DNA from: a bacterium
GTDB lineage: Bacteria; Electryoneota; RPQS01
NCBI GenBank assembly: GCA_013360195.1
Contig: JABWCQ010000002.1
Location: forward strand, 126,932 to 190,931
DNA: 64,000 nucleotides
Reading direction: 5' to 3'
Made by a program: the position numbers and the translations under genes
Notes under the pieces: model-generated
What the model saw: the letters and a program-made list of their open reading frames with translations, nothing else
What the model was told of the DNA's origin: nothing
Databases searched by the model: none
Shown here: positions 15,915 through 21,754 of the stretch, piece by piece
How the letters are laid out: every line of letters begins with the position of its first letter
Position numbering within the stretch: the first letter of the stretch is position 1

Positions 15915-15989
15915 ACCCCCGTAGCTCAGTGGATAGAGCACCGGCCTCCGGAGCCGGGAGCATGGGTTCGAGTCCCGTCGGGGGTGCCA
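15915..15989 (+). tRNA. tRNA-Arg (anticodon CCG), CCA encoded
   Basis: A full cloverleaf can be drawn. Acceptor stem ACCCCCG/CGGGGGT (7 bp), D-arm GCTCAGTGGATAGAGC, anticodon stem CCGGC/GCCGG around loop CTCCGGA (anticodon CCG, reading CGG codons), and T-arm ATGGG-TTCGAGT-CCCGT. The discriminator is G and the 3' CCA is encoded at 15987-15989. The downstream gene starts only 14 nt after it. Confidence 0.96.
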
Positions 15990-16003: not shown

Positions 16004-16333
16004 ATGTCAGAAACGTCGCAGACACCTTTACCGAATGAACCTCTCGAAATCAGCGAGGACGAGAAGCTGCTTGCGGTTCTGTCATACATACCAGTAGTCT
16101 GCTTTGTGCCGTTTTTCAAGCGCGAAGAGTCTGCTTTTGTTCATGGTCACGTCCGATTGGGAATGGCGCTCTTCTTTGTCGAGGTCCTGGCGCTAATGCT
16201 TCGCTTTCGCTTCATTTGGGATCTAGTCTTGTTTTTCTGTATTGTTCTTGCAGGACTGGGTATTATGAACGTGTTCAAGGGGCGAGGTTTCTTTGTTCCA
16301 TTTTTGTCTGATCTTTTTAGCCGTAAGTTCTAG
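16004..16333 (+). CDS. Small integral membrane protein (DUF4870/Tic20-like)
   Basis: A 109-aa protein from ATG 16004; the longer frame from 15929 is rejected because it starts inside the tRNA. After a short polar N-terminus, SEDEKLLAVLSYIPVVCFVP forms the first hydrophobic segment, then the conserved-looking FVHGHVRLGMALFFVEVLAL, and a third segment (FIWDLVLFFCIVLAGLGIMN), ending at FVPFLSDLFSRKF. The layout of 'AxLsYi...', 'F...H.rqg..lf' and a third helix recalls the DUF4870/Tic20 membrane proteins, whose function in bacteria is not established. No strong ribosome site is visible. It may be read from the tRNA-Arg transcript. Assignment to that family is tentative. Confidence 0.65.
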   Translation: MSETSQTPLPNEPLEISEDEKLLAVLSYIPVVCFVPFFKREESAFVHGHVRLGMALFFVEVLALMLRFRFIWDLVLFFCIVLAGLGIMNVFKGRGFFVPFLSDLFSRKF

Positions 16334-16375: not shown

Positions 16376-17647
16376 TTGAGAATAGCAGAGAAAGTCGCCC
16401 AGTTTCAGACTGCACGGCAGGTCATGTCGGCGGGGGTTTATCCGTATTTCAGGGCAATCGAGACTGATCAGGATGCTGTCGTCAAGATAGACGGCCGTGA
16501 CATTTTGATGCTTGGGTCAAACAACTATCTTGGACTGACAAATCACCCAAAAGTCAAGGAAGCGGCTCGACAGGCAGTGGACAACTTTGGTGCGGGATGT
16601 GCTGGTTCACGCTTCTTGAACGGCACGTTGAGTATTCATCGGGAGTGTGAAGAGAAACTGGCGTACTTCTTGAGAAAAGAGGCAGTACTTTTGTTCACAA
16701 CCGGTTATCAGGCCAATTTGGGGGGAATTGCCACTTTAGTTTCGAGAAACACGTGGATAATTGCTGACGCATTGTCGCATGCATCAATCATTGATGCAAC
16801 ACGACTTTCGTTTGGCCGCGTTGCCAAGTTTCGCCATAACGACATGGCAGATCTGGAAAGGTTGCTCATCGCGCATCAAGGCAAGGAGATGATCGTCGTA
16901 ACGGAGGGCGTCTTTTCCATGGAGGGTGATACCGTGGACCTCCCCGCTGTTGTCGAGTTGTGCAAGAAGTACGACGCCGATCTGATTCTGGATGATGCCC
17001 ACGGGGTAGGAGTTTACGGTCCTCACGGTGATGGTACGGCCGGGCACTTTGGATTAACAAACGATACAGATCTGATAATTGGCACATTTTCGAAATCGCT
17101 TGCAGCAATTGGTGGGTTCGTAGCCGCTTCGGAAGACATTGTGCATTTTCTGAAACATCATGCGCGTGCGTTGATATTTTCAGCCAGTCCGCCGCCTGCA
17201 ACTGTTGGGGCAGTGATAGCCGCTTTGAAGATCATTGACGAAGAACCAGAACGTCGGGAATTGCTTTGGAGCAATGCAAACTACCTGCGTAACGGGCTGA
17301 AGGGTCTAGGGCTGGATACAGGTCACAGCAATACTCCGATAATCCCAGTTGTCGTAGGAGATGCTCTCAATTCATTCAAGGTCTGCAAGTTGATGCAAGA
17401 TGAAGGTGTGTTCATCAATCCGGTGGTCCCCCCGGCTGTTCAGCCCGGTCAAAGTTTAATTCGTTTTTCTGTGATGTCGACCCACACTCACGATCAGCTT
17501 GACTTTGCGCTCGACAAAATCGCCAAAATTGCAAGGCAAATCCCATTTCACGCGGAGGCAGGGCATTCCAACAAGAATTCTGCAAGTTACGGATCGGAAG
17601 TCTCTGAACCGTTTTCTGAAGTTTCCGTGGCAAGTTCAGGGCACTGA
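16376..17647 (+). CDS. Alpha-oxoamine synthase, serine palmitoyltransferase-like
   Basis: PLP enzyme that condenses an amino acid with an acyl thioester; 423 aa. PLP-binding Lys240 lies in GTFSKSLAAIGGF. Other family segments: MLGSNNYLGLTNHPKVKEAA, GCAGSRFLNGTLSIHRECEE, DALSHASIIDATRLSFG and LILDDAHGVGVYGPHG. Members include serine palmitoyltransferase, Kbl, BioF and HemA; SRFLNGT and the C-terminal FINPVVPPAVQPGQSLIRFS are most like the palmitoyltransferase branch of Bacteroidota-like bacteria, and no biotin, threonine or haem genes are nearby. The start is TTG 16376 with GGAG at 16365-16368. The last 35 residues are Ser/Glu-rich and overlap the next gene. Family certain; substrate inferred. 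Confidence 0.85.
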   Translation: MRIAEKVAQFQTARQVMSAGVYPYFRAIETDQDAVVKIDGRDILMLGSNNYLGLTNHPKVKEAARQAVDNFGAGCAGSRFLNGTLSIHRECEEKLAYFLRKEAVLLFTTGYQANLGGIATLVSRNTWIIADALSHASIIDATRLSFGRVAKFRHNDMADLERLLIAHQGKEMIVVTEGVFSMEGDTVDLPAVVELCKKYDADLILDDAHGVGVYGPHGDGTAGHFGLTNDTDLIIGTFSKSLAAIGGFVAASEDIVHFLKHHARALIFSASPPPATVGAVIAALKIIDEEPERRELLWSNANYLRNGLKGLGLDTGHSNTPIIPVVVGDALNSFKVCKLMQDEGVFINPVVPPAVQPGQSLIRFSVMSTHTHDQLDFALDKIAKIARQIPFHAEAGHSNKNSASYGSEVSEPFSEVSVASSGH

Positions 17648-18683
17648 TCCCAACTGGGTCCCGCCGTTGCTTTTCGACCAACGGAAGCTCTTTCAGCCGA
17701 CCCATCCCTTTCATAAACACGCGAACGTTAGGCACTTCATTGCAGTTGATGGGGGTGACAACGTTCGCGGTCGTATTAGTGCAATTGTTAACCGTGCCCA
17801 CAATGATTTCTGGCACGACAATGTTGGCTTTTTCGGATTCTTTGAATGCGTGAATGATGGCGCTGTAGCTCGAGAATTACTTCTTTCGGCAGAAGACTTT
17901 CTCAAGAGCAATGGGATGTCCACATCCCGCGGCCCTGTGAACTTTTCGACAAACGAGGAATGCGGACTTCTAATTGAAGGCTTTGACACGCCTCCTGCTG
18001 TAATGATGACTCATAATCCTCCTTACTATTCATCATTGATTGAGAGTGCAGGTTACAGTAAGGCTAAGGACTTGTTCGCATATCAGATGTTCGAAGGCGA
18101 GCTGTCTGAACGAGTTCGTGATATTGCGCGACGGATCGAAGACCGTATGGATATTAGATTCAGGCTGTTCAATAAGCGGGATTTCAACGGCGAAGTCGAG
18201 AGATTCAAGATGATCTATAATTCCGCATGGTCAGACAATTGGGGGTTCGTGCCGATGACAGATGAGGAAATCAACGTCATGGCGGAAAGCCTGAAGATGG
18301 TCATTGATCCGCGACTTATCCAGTTTGCCGAGACTTCAGACGGCAGGACAGTTGGTTTCATTCTTGGACTTCCCGATCTAAACGTAATTTTCAAGAAGTT
18401 AAACGGCAGACTATTCCCGTTTGGTATCATTCGACTGTTATTGGAGAAGCACAAAGTAGGTCGTGCTCGAGTTCTTGCAATGGGAATATTACCCGAATTC
18501 AGGAAGAAGGGCATAGATGCAGTTCTCTATCATCGTGCTTACGATGCAGGAGTCAACGTTGGCTACAGGTGGGGAGAGTTTTCCTGGGTGCTTGAGGATA
18601 ACGAGTTGATGACCAAAGCGGCCGAAGCAATGGGTGCTAAGGCATACAAGACATGGCGGATCTACGACAAGGGGATTTCCTAA
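17499..18683 (+). CDS. Large GNAT-like (YghO-type) acyltransferase, candidate partner of the oxoamine synthase
   Basis: Up to 394 aa. The N-terminus reads FLKFPWQVQGTDPNWVPPLL, a motif seen in a family of large GNAT-like proteins of the YghO type, followed by RGPVNFSTNEECGLLIEGFD and a C-terminal GNAT-like fold with VLAMGILPEFRKKGIDAVLY (acyl-CoA binding region) and EFSWVLEDNELMTKAAEAMG. In some bacteria such proteins sit next to serine palmitoyltransferase, and a GNAT-like protein acts as ceramide synthase in Caulobacter; that link is inference. Start problem: TTG 17499 gives a 149-nt overlap with the upstream gene, whereas homology begins near 17565, where an ATT codon is preceded by GGAGG (17554-17558) at 6-nt spacing. 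A rare ATT start is possible. Confidence 0.72.
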   Translation: MTLRSTKSPKLQGKSHFTRRQGIPTRILQVTDRKSLNRFLKFPWQVQGTDPNWVPPLLFDQRKLFQPTHPFHKHANVRHFIAVDGGDNVRGRISAIVNRAHNDFWHDNVGFFGFFECVNDGAVARELLLSAEDFLKSNGMSTSRGPVNFSTNEECGLLIEGFDTPPAVMMTHNPPYYSSLIESAGYSKAKDLFAYQMFEGELSERVRDIARRIEDRMDIRFRLFNKRDFNGEVERFKMIYNSAWSDNWGFVPMTDEEINVMAESLKMVIDPRLIQFAETSDGRTVGFILGLPDLNVIFKKLNGRLFPFGIIRLLLEKHKVGRARVLAMGILPEFRKKGIDAVLYHRAYDAGVNVGYRWGEFSWVLEDNELMTKAAEAMGAKAYKTWRIYDKGIS

Positions 18684-18686
18684 CAG

Positions 18687-20234
18687 ATGTTTGCAGAAGT
18701 AACCACAGCAGCTTTGATGGGAGTTGACGCAATTCGCGTTAGAGCTGAGTGTCACTTGGAGAATGCCGCTGAATCAGCCATAGTGATCGTGGGTCTTCCG
18801 GACAATGCCGTGAAGGAAGCTAAAGAAAGAGTCTCGGCGGCAATCAAGAACACCGGTCTTGCAATGCCTCAAAGGCGAGTTATCATCAATCTTGCTCCGG
18901 CAAACATTCGTAAGGAAGGCAGTTCGTTTGATCTTCCAATCGCGATAGGAATACTCGGCGCTTCCGGACAGTTGAGGCCAGGTGCCCTTGAAAACACAGT
19001 CTTCATGGGCGAACTTGCTTTGGACGGCAATTTGCGTCCCGTGAGAGGAATGCTCTCTGTAACCGGCGCAATGCAGAAAGAAGGCTTGCAAAAGATTGTC
19101 GTTCCCGATGGTAACAAGCAGGAGGCCGCTCTTGTTGATGAAATGGAAGTATATCCAGCGAACTCCCTGCGTGAGACAATTGACTTCTTGAATGGGCTAA
19201 AGCCGATTGACAGACATTCTGTAGATCATCGTCGACTGTTCGATGAATCTCGTGAATTGACCGGTGATTTCTCGGATGTTCGCGGCCAAGAATCGGTCAA
19301 ACGAGCACTTGAAGTGGCAGCCGCAGGTGGACACAATGTCCTAATGATCGGTCCTCCCGGATCTGGGAAAACAATGCTCGCAAAGCGTTTGCCGGGAATT
19401 TTGCCGGAATTCAGTATACAAGAGGCACTTGAGACTACTCGAGTCCACTCCGTTGCCGGCATACTTCCCAGCGGTAAGGCAATAGTCGCAAATCGTCCGT
19501 TTCGTTCTCCGCATCACACCGTCTCAGATGCCGGATTAATCGGCGGCGGTATGATTCCGCGTCCGGGTGAAGTGTCGCTCGCGCATAACGGCGTTCTATT
19601 TCTTGATGAATTGCCTGAATTTCACAAGAACGTCTTGGAGGTACTCAGGCAGCCGCTGGAAGACGGTGTCGTTACATTGTCTCGTGCGGCCGTGTCGCTC
19701 TCATATCCCGCACAGTTTATGCTTGTAGCGGCGATGAATCCATGTCCTTGCGGCTTTGCAACAGACCAGGACAGAGAGTGCAAGTGCACGACCGAACAGA
19801 TTCGCCGCTACGTAGCAAAGATTTCCGGACCCCTTCTCGATAGGATAGATTTGCACGTGGAAGTTCCCCGGGTATCTTGGAACGAACTTTCATCACCGGC
19901 AGCAAAAGACAGTTCGGACAGGATAAGAAGTCGAGTCGATTCAGCGCGTCGTCGGCAGCGCCAGAGATTCGAAAATTATCGTACGAATCTCTATTCCAAT
20001 GCTCAAATGAGTAACAAGGAGATTGAGCAGTTTGCTCCTATCGATTCACAAAGTCTTGAGTTACTGCGACAGGTCGTTGAAAACATGGGGTTGTCCGCAC
20101 GTGCGTATCATCGGATCAGAAAAGTCGCACGAACGATTGCAGACATAGAGGAAAGTGACGATATTCAAATGCATCATGTCACAGAAGCGATCCAGTATCG
20201 CTCACTGGACAGGCTAGGGGAGCTCATTGTATAG
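18687..20234 (+). CDS. comM: ComM/YifB-family Mg-chelatase-like AAA+ ATPase
   Basis: A 515-aa AAA+ ATPase of the YifB/ComM family; ComM is a helicase promoting branch migration during natural transformation. Domains in order: N-terminal Lon-protease-like domain (MFAEVTTAALMGVDAIRVRA through QRRVIINLAPANIRKEGSSF), AAA+ core with Walker A IGPPGSGKTMLAKRLPGIL (about 221-240), Walker B GVLFLDELPEF, the loop RPFRSPHHTVSDAGLIGGG, AAMNPCPCGF with the Cys pair, and a C-terminal helical lid (GLSARAYHRIRKVARTIADI). It starts 3 nt after the GNAT gene and overlaps the next gene by one base. It interrupts the putative lipid group and probably shares only transcription with it. Confidence 0.93.
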   Translation: MFAEVTTAALMGVDAIRVRAECHLENAAESAIVIVGLPDNAVKEAKERVSAAIKNTGLAMPQRRVIINLAPANIRKEGSSFDLPIAIGILGASGQLRPGALENTVFMGELALDGNLRPVRGMLSVTGAMQKEGLQKIVVPDGNKQEAALVDEMEVYPANSLRETIDFLNGLKPIDRHSVDHRRLFDESRELTGDFSDVRGQESVKRALEVAAAGGHNVLMIGPPGSGKTMLAKRLPGILPEFSIQEALETTRVHSVAGILPSGKAIVANRPFRSPHHTVSDAGLIGGGMIPRPGEVSLAHNGVLFLDELPEFHKNVLEVLRQPLEDGVVTLSRAAVSLSYPAQFMLVAAMNPCPCGFATDQDRECKCTTEQIRRYVAKISGPLLDRIDLHVEVPRVSWNELSSPAAKDSSDRIRSRVDSARRRQRQRFENYRTNLYSNAQMSNKEIEQFAPIDSQSLELLRQVVENMGLSARAYHRIRKVARTIADIEESDDIQMHHVTEAIQYRSLDRLGELIV

Positions 20235-21754
20235 TGGACGGTGGTCGTGGAATTAGTAATCTGTCGGAGTGGGCACATTCACTTCTGACTTTATCGCCGG
20301 AAAGAACTCTGTTTGTTTCCGGCGGGGAGAGCGTTTCTTCAACCGCGTTTCATGAACAAGTTTCGCTTTTTCGTGGCGGCATAACGCGAGCGGGGATAAT
20401 GCCGGATCAGATTGTCGCAGTCGCATGTGAAAGGAATTTGCGAAGTGTTGCAGCAGTGTTTGCGTGCTTTTGCGACGGTGCATTGCCTTTTCTGTTCGAT
20501 CCCAGGCAGGATCCCGAGACCTGTGCCAAGCTTTTTGACTCACTTCGCATCAGCGGATTGGTTCTGGGTGAGAATCAGGAATCAGGTTTCTTCGCTTCTC
20601 GATTGCCGTATTTGAAATGGTCAGGTGAAATCCATGGTGTCACTCCAAAGACCGGCGTGACTGCTCAACATGTAGCTGGCGGTTTCCTGCTCCATACGGC
20701 CGGAACCTGCGGTTTGCCTCGTGCGTTTCAACATTCTGCAGCGGCCGTGAACTGGCAGGCAAATGCACTAATAGCGAACCTGCGGCTGAAGCCAGGCTTG
20801 GAGACATGGTTCACTGGATCGCTTGCTTCACCTGCCAACTTTTCTTTTGCTCTCTGCGCCACATTGAAAGCAGGTGGAACTGTCGTACTCGATGAACCTG
20901 AGAACGCTCTGCATGAAGAACCCAAGCTTAATGGCAATCAACGCATACTTGTAATGGCACAAGCGCGGGATGAGGAAAGTTGGAATGCGGATCGACTATT
21001 AAAGCTTAAAGGCAGGCTTTCATCTATACTTGTGACCGACTTTCCTCTTACAGAATCCTATTGCACAACTTTGATCAGTGCAACTGACGGAGTTGTCTGG
21101 TCAGGATTCAGCACTGCTGAATGCGCCGGGTTTCTTGCACTTAATACAGTTCCGGGAGTTTGGCCTGTAGAATCAGTGGGGCGTCCGCTTGCCGGCTCTG
21201 AGATTGTCATCTTTGGCAATGATGGCGAACAACTTGGTAACAATCAGCCGGGGCGTCTTGCGTATAAATTCGCGCCACGACCAGAAAAGGTTACTTCCTT
21301 GACATTCCAAGGCAAAGAACAATCGTCTCCGTTCACCTTTACGGGCGATTGGGCGCTTGTTGATGACAATGACTTCCTTTACATTCTAGGAAACGAGAAG
21401 GCGTTGTTTTTTAAGGCAGGATTCATTGTAAAGGCACTTGAAATTGAGGACGCTATCCGAAACGCAAGCGGCTTGAGCGACGCTGTCGTTTTTGCAGTCC
21501 ACGATGATGAAACAGAGAGTGAAATCGCCGCGGTTGTGAGTTTTACTGGAGAAACAACACGGCTTGCAGAGGCAATTTCGATTCTCGAATCCCGGATTCC
21601 GCGGTACAAAGTCCCGGAAAGATTGGCGCAAATTGAATCGTTTTCACGTACACCCAGCGGGAAGAAGAAAAGGTTTGGGTTCGCAACGCCTCCCAAATAT
21701 GCACCGGTGGAAAAGGCTGCTGTAACTTCCCCGGAACACGGCGAAGGAAATTGA
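20234..21754 (+). CDS. AMP-forming acyl ligase (ANL superfamily), substrate unknown
   Basis: A 506-aa member of the acyl-CoA synthetase/adenylation superfamily that would activate a carboxylic acid as an acyl-AMP. Core motifs are present but divergent: A3 reads TAGTCGLPRAF in place of the common SGTTGxPKG, A5 is SGFSTAECAG, A7 is FTGDWALVDDNDF, A8 is GNEKALFFKAGFIVKALEIED, and the A10 catalytic lysine is retained in TPSGKKKRFG. An N-terminal domain with SSTAFHEQVSLFRGGI and SVAAVFACFCDGALPFLFDP is normal. Start GTG 20234 overlaps the comM stop. It could provide an acyl thioester to the nearby oxoamine synthase or to acyl carrier protein; no direct evidence chooses a substrate. Confidence 0.75.
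   Translation: MDGGRGISNLSEWAHSLLTLSPERTLFVSGGESVSSTAFHEQVSLFRGGITRAGIMPDQIVAVACERNLRSVAAVFACFCDGALPFLFDPRQDPETCAKLFDSLRISGLVLGENQESGFFASRLPYLKWSGEIHGVTPKTGVTAQHVAGGFLLHTAGTCGLPRAFQHSAAAVNWQANALIANLRLKPGLETWFTGSLASPANFSFALCATLKAGGTVVLDEPENALHEEPKLNGNQRILVMAQARDEESWNADRLLKLKGRLSSILVTDFPLTESYCTTLISATDGVVWSGFSTAECAGFLALNTVPGVWPVESVGRPLAGSEIVIFGNDGEQLGNNQPGRLAYKFAPRPEKVTSLTFQGKEQSSPFTFTGDWALVDDNDFLYILGNEKALFFKAGFIVKALEIEDAIRNASGLSDAVVFAVHDDETESEIAAVVSFTGETTRLAEAISILESRIPRYKVPERLAQIESFSRTPSGKKKRFGFATPPKYAPVEKAAVTSPEHGEGN

Follow-up and report, generated by a model that had tools for sequence, protein, structure and literature searches.

Organization of the Locus

The sequence analyzed here, hereafter the window, is a stretch of 64,000 nucleotides (nt) from a bacterium of the Electryoneota (lineage RPQS01; assembly GCA_013360195.1, contig JABWCQ010000002.1, positions 126,932 to 190,931). 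It carries two overlapping genes, spt and bcerS, which are predicted to act in the synthesis of a ceramide backbone. The spt gene (16376-17647, forward strand) begins with a TTG codon and encodes a 423-residue protein, a Bacteroidetes-type serine palmitoyltransferase (SPT), whose pyridoxal phosphate (PLP) lysine, Lys240, lies in GTFSKSLAAIGG. The bcerS gene (17565-18683, forward strand) would encode a 372-residue GNAT-fold protein, a putative bacterial ceramide synthase (bCerS). It is read in the +1 frame relative to spt and shares 83 nt with the 3' end of that gene. Its proposed start codon is an ATT (17565-17567, forward strand), and a GGAGG Shine-Dalgarno (SD) motif (17554-17558, forward strand), itself located inside spt, ends 6 nt before this codon.

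A previous reading of the window, made from the sequence alone, had recognized the 423-residue enzyme with its PLP Lys240 and the GNAT-like open reading frame (ORF) overlapping it. Both are seen in the sequence, and the positions which this sequence-only reading gave for the two ORFs, for comM, for an AMP-binding ligase and for the downstream fab and acpP genes are all as described. Chance ORFs can be ruled out: spt, the GNAT-like ORF and the ligase are real genes because of their profile scores (561.7 bits to NF047600 for spt, 68 bits to AMP-binding for the ligase) and because homologues of the GNAT-like protein, with 27-67% identity, occur in 43 of the 61 genomes searched. Such homologues are also carried by named plasmids.

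Identity of the Serine Palmitoyltransferase

The best NCBIfam model for the 423-residue protein is NF047600 (serine palmitoyltransferase, CFB type), and the next model scores 395.7 bits. Comparison with proteins of known structure gives 444 bits to the SPT of Sphingobacterium (PDB 3a2b) versus at most 316 bits to other oxoamine synthases, of the Kbl/BioF type. A quick tree search performed on 85 oxoamine synthases separated 66 SPT-type from 19 Kbl/BioF-type rows at an SH-aLRT value of 100, and the window enzyme grouped with its own family and, further out, with the Sphingobacterium enzyme (3a2b), other Bacteroidota and verrucomicrobial SPTs. The residues that bind PLP and serine are known from the Sphingobacterium multivorum enzyme (PMC10196870). 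All of them are conserved, N49, H135, D206, H209, T237, S239, K240 and R363 of the window enzyme corresponding to N52, H138, D210, H213, T241, S243, K244 and R367, and Lys240 is held in the motif GTFSKS. Thus, the enzyme shares with S. multivorum SPT (PDB 3a2b, 8guh) its clade, its catalytic and substrate-binding residues and the GTFSKS motif. It differs by a non-conserved C-terminal tail, which is the part that overlaps bcerS. Judged from its sequence, the 423-residue protein is a Bacteroidetes-type SPT, with a predicted condensation activity. The sequence-only reading had favored an SPT and had suggested phylogenetic placement among SPT, Kbl and BioF; profile scores, tree and active-site residues bear it out, the enzyme falling on the SPT side. 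A Kbl or BioF identity was thereby rejected, and the second oxoamine synthase of the genome, on another contig (C4), is a Kbl (664 bits to TIGR01822, for a cut-off of 493).

It may also be asked whether this first enzyme makes another alpha-oxoamine lipid, either a sulfonolipid precursor, as SulA does, or 1-deoxysphingolipids, rather than a serine-derived sphinganine. SulA and SPT share fold and active site (PMC9304779), 1-deoxyceramides are present in anoxic waters (PMC11334938), and the choice between serine and alanine as substrate cannot be read from an SPT sequence. However, the window enzyme scores 444 bits against SPT and about 224-254 bits against structures of SulA/cysteate acyltransferases. 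In addition, an alanine versus a lysine at one site separates SPT from SulA (PMC9304779), and the window enzyme has Ala270 (in FSAS) where SulA reportedly has its diagnostic Lys281, a position matched here by motif with SulA itself unaligned. A sulfonolipid enzyme was discarded on this lower similarity and on the absence of the diagnostic lysine, and we regard the alternative as a whole as very improbable.

Identity of the Overlapping GNAT Protein

The protein encoded by the overlapping gene matches GNAT only below threshold in Pfam and has no match in NCBIfam. Nevertheless, Escherichia coli YghO aligns with it over its full length (36% identity, 376 alignment columns). The yghO gene has been listed together with Caulobacter CC_1154, a gene required for ceramide formation (PMC9386255). 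An AlphaFold2 model of the protein, obtained with a predicted local distance difference test score (pLDDT) of 93, has tandem GNAT enzymes as its best PDB matches. These data support its assignment as a bCerS, with a ceramide as the predicted product. The ceramide synthase proposed by the sequence-only reading is upheld by this homology and by the repeated SPT-bCerS-CerR gene order described below; that reading had named a match to unrelated acetyltransferases as the contrary outcome, and the full-length match found is YghO. As a separate observation, Myxococcaceae (L113, L127, L155) have tandem ceramide synthases, with SPT, bCerS, CerR and another bCerS-like gene in consecutive order.

The Reductase and the Predicted Pathway

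A profile of the third enzyme, CerR, was built from the NAD-dependent epimerases/dehydrogenases that neighbor SPT-bCerS pairs. It retrieves a CerR orthologue in the window genome with 242 bits, the next dehydrogenase scoring 93. The gene (G000:C2:253397-254374, minus strand; L062:9398-10375) is on the same contig, about 108 kb from bcerS and outside the window. The earlier remark that no ketosphinganine reductase is visible except of the FabG type therefore holds within the window and fails for the contig: the reductase seemed absent because the window is too small to include CerR. FabG itself was rejected for this role: its score clears the FabG cut-off, and the genome has a CerR orthologue at another place.

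Five other families of the phylum have CerR immediately after bCerS or close by. In the order to which the window belongs, CerR has moved away from the SPT-bCerS-CerR cluster and lies about 100-120 kb from SPT-bCerS in the five genomes whose assembly allows a judgement (G000, G001, G002, G008, G011). The cluster itself, kept in other families of the phylum, is also found as SPT, GNAT protein and NAD-dependent epimerase/dehydrogenase in Rubrobacter and Streptomyces plasmids, and SPT-bCerS with a nearby CerR recurs in many metagenome-assembled genomes of other phyla. In E. coli, the order is SPT, acyl carrier protein (ACP), CerR and AasR, with yghO alongside. One further genome of the set has CerR, a small membrane protein and bCerS on one stretch (G035:C18:331-6859), and a CFB-type SPT was not detected in it.

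Full-length homologues of all three enzymes known from Caulobacter crescentus (Spt, bCerS and CerR; CC_1162, CC_1154 and CC_1164) and from the E. coli yghO operon are thus found in the window genome. It differs from those systems in that no AasR orthologue and no AcpR were identified, CerR is apart from the pair, and SPT is of the Bacteroidetes subgroup. By analogy, SPT would condense serine with an acyl thioester to give 3-ketosphinganine, bCerS would N-acylate this product and CerR would reduce the ketone. Acylation before reduction has been argued for Caulobacter and is still debated (PMC11087976). Homology, gene order and active-site residues place the three proteins in these families; the activities, the lipid product and the order of the steps are inferred from Caulobacter. 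The ceramide pathway as such is already known in bacteria, and SPT, bCerS and CerR homologues are known in many uncultured phyla, 38 of them in the Black Sea (PMC11334938). The present case adds a further, uncultured lineage with a complete ceramide gene set, albeit a split one.

A Conserved AUU or AUC Codon at the Proposed Start of bcerS

The start region of bcerS was compared in the nine genomes of the family that have the gene (the window, G001, G002, G003, G005, G006, G008, G009 and G010), which represent seven genera. The homologous start site was defined as the position of Met1 in the Sphingomonas and Streptomyces homologues, seven codons before a conserved V/I. At this site, the codon is ATT in three genomes and ATC in six, and never ATG, GTG or TTG. 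Both genomes of the sister family (G011, G012) have GTG at this site. A GGAGG or GGAG-like SD motif is located 6-8 nt upstream of ATT/ATC in eight of the nine genomes, though the SPT residues encoded there vary. By their pairing energy with the anti-SD sequence, the sites rank near the 2nd percentile (geometric mean) of the ATT/ATC sites in these loci. At the protein level, conservation follows the SPT frame upstream of ATT/ATC and the bCerS frame downstream of it.

The annotated start of bcerS, TTG 17499, is probably wrong. This codon is unconserved, homology to bCerS begins about 22 codons after it, and no homology precedes the ATT; it was therefore discarded. The overlap with spt noted in the sequence-only reading stands, while the length of 394 residues, which rests on TTG 17499, gives way to 372 residues from ATT 17565.

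Still, bCerS might start at poorly conserved TTG or GTG codons upstream, or at codons downstream, the conservation of ATT/ATC being a by-product of the spt frame. Indeed, the window, G006, G008 and G009 have in-frame TTG or GTG codons further upstream. However, the SPT residues encoded at the ATT/ATC site are unconserved (H/Y/D, then S/P/R). Moreover, G001, G002, G003 and G010 have no ATG, GTG or TTG in the open bCerS frame that preserves the conserved N-terminus, and the sole canonical candidate in G005 is a GTG at +7. A usable canonical start is thus missing in five of the nine genomes. In-frame stop codons are found 3-12 codons upstream of the site in three genomes. Finally, the first predicted strand of bCerS spans residues 4-7 counted from ATT (pLDDT about 91), and a downstream start would remove this strand and the first helix. 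Starts at these other codons are unlikely.

Two comparisons served as controls. Outside the family, every one of about 100 bCerS loci offers a canonical start codon in the open frame, either at the site itself, upstream of it or within two codons. In the family genomes themselves, 15 neighboring genes gave no case lacking a canonical start among about 100 gene-genome pairs.

A second possibility is that bCerS has no initiation of its own and is the C-terminal part of an SPT-bCerS fusion, made by programmed +1 frameshifting within the overlap. In agreement with this idea, bcerS occupies the +1 frame relative to spt throughout the nine genomes, and frameshifting can be stimulated by an intragenic SD-like element. 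On the other hand, the spacing of 6-8 nt between SD and ATT/ATC is normal for initiation, and the codon coincides exactly with Met1 of other bCerS proteins and with the GTG of the sister family. In the bCerS frame, conservation begins at ATT/ATC and is absent upstream, and in G010 this frame opens only two codons before ATC. No slippery site was noticed, and no systematic search for one was made. Frameshifting from spt, counted among the arguments against independent initiation, has in our opinion little chance of being correct.

The comparative evidence from these sequences supports a start of bCerS at ATT/ATC. The infC gene usually starts at a non-canonical codon. In the window genome, the stretch from the thrS terminus to the conserved N-terminal part of infC (L181, G000:C7:28877-29374, minus strand) contains no ATG, GTG or TTG. 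GGAGG is followed there by A ATT CTG, and the start of infC is apparently non-canonical too. The organism is therefore evidently able to use such starts.

Besides the upstream TTG and GTG codons mentioned above, several points weigh against the proposed interpretation of the locus. The SD motif is atypical in G010 (GGTGA) and weak in G001 and G008. The nine genomes are related and do not represent nine independent events. As for SPT, its score stays under the curated cut-off of NF047600 (640 bits), though this model is the best by 166 bits. None of the 61 neighborhood genomes reaches 640 bits, so the cut-off was probably tuned to other lineages. Taken together, the explanation that best accounts for the data, and that we consider likely to hold, combines a bacterial (dihydro)ceramide backbone pathway with a bCerS start at AUU/AUC, behind an SD motif inside the 3' end of spt.

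Neighboring Genes

The comM gene (18687-20234) separates bcerS from the divergent AMP-binding ligase (20234-21754, forward strand), which has an altered A3 motif, HTAGTCGLPRA. The ligase occupies a comM-bfn slot that is constant in all family members examined (L063-L071 for the relatives). In most relatives, the slot contains an ordinary acyl-CoA synthetase (253-293 bits to Pfam AMP-binding in those tested). In the subclade of the window (window, G001, G006), the ligase is degenerate, with 68-82 bits in the two cases tested and the A3 motif altered. It has diverged fast in this subclade, which suggests a loss or a change of function.

The sequence-only reading had likened this ligase to the acyl activating enzyme of Caulobacter. 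The comparison did not survive: with E. coli AasR, the ligase gives a local match (E 0.017) and no full-length one, it was not found beside SPT-bCerS in other families, and the protein is a degenerate relative of an acyl-CoA synthetase. The role was rejected on sequence and neighborhood grounds, and the ligase probably lies outside the ceramide pathway. A search of the whole genome with E. coli AasR returned weak local matches only (best, 64 bits), and AasR is the member in which the genome departs from the Caulobacter-type five-gene set. Downstream of the ligase are fabH, fabD, fabG, acpP and fabF. By its position next to fabF, acpP is the ordinary ACP of fatty acid synthesis. No dedicated AcpR was identified, AcpR not having been searched separately.

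Directly upstream of spt, a gene (16004-16333, forward strand) encodes a small membrane protein of 109 residues. The ORF annotated from 15929 overlaps a tRNA-Arg (15915-15989), and the ATG at 16004 agrees with the homologues. Within the phylum, 24 genomes have this protein (109-120 residues). Its gene is directly 5' of spt in 21 of them (families f1, f2, f3, f4, f7, f8), the other three being a contig break, a position near bCerS without spt and an unlinked gene. Examples besides the window are L072:7488-7856 and L075:10063-10401, among others. The protein has no Pfam match at E<=1, and none was seen beside SPT in other phyla. An ORMDL-like or other known fold was set aside, as the structural model (pLDDT 73) matched nothing in the PDB at E<=0.001. 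The protein is possibly an SPT-associated anchor or regulator; its linkage to spt at the level of the phylum was not found in the literature searched.

Possible Consequences for Ceramide Synthesis

AUU and AUC codons initiate weakly, and IF3 discriminates against them. If bCerS is initiated at such a codon by its own SD motif within the spt message, weak initiation would keep the ceramide synthase low relative to SPT and sensitive to IF3. The ceramide synthase is probably limited in this manner because of these two properties of the codons, and it may respond to IF3, as judged by analogy with infC, pcnB and sigR. Non-canonical starts have published precedents (PMC5472188, PMC13009471, PMC13068326). 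For sigR, low translation from such a start is IF3-sensitive (PMC5472188). In Staphylococcus aureus, AUU and AUA starts give about 10-30% of reporter output (PMC13009471).

Conserved rare starts are found in infC (ATT), pcnB (ATT), sigR from Streptomyces (GTC), S. aureus cvfC1 (AUU) and ccpN (AUA), and rnhC from Listeria (ATC), and bcerS would join these genes. It resembles the infC type by a mostly strong SD motif and by a translation expected to be limited through IF3. In contrast to all of them, bcerS encodes an enzyme of lipid synthesis, has its start inside the preceding gene of the pathway and is proposed here from comparative genomics. A family-wide AUU/AUC start of a ceramide synthase inside spt was not found in the literature searched. 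The present case would be among the few comparative ones of a conserved AUU/AUC start outside infC, the gene being here a metabolic one. Such starts escape standard gene callers, and bCerS would be truncated or mis-started by them throughout the family.

We lean toward the view that AUU/AUC starts inside spt have become fixed for the ceramide synthase across the whole family, and that start-codon discrimination by IF3 holds back sphingolipid synthesis at the second enzyme. This view predicts that synthesis of the ceramide synthase is IF3-sensitive and low relative to that of SPT. If true, bcerS would be one of the rare metabolic genes controlled by IF3 at the start codon, and the sister families would display a change between GTG and AUC/AUU.

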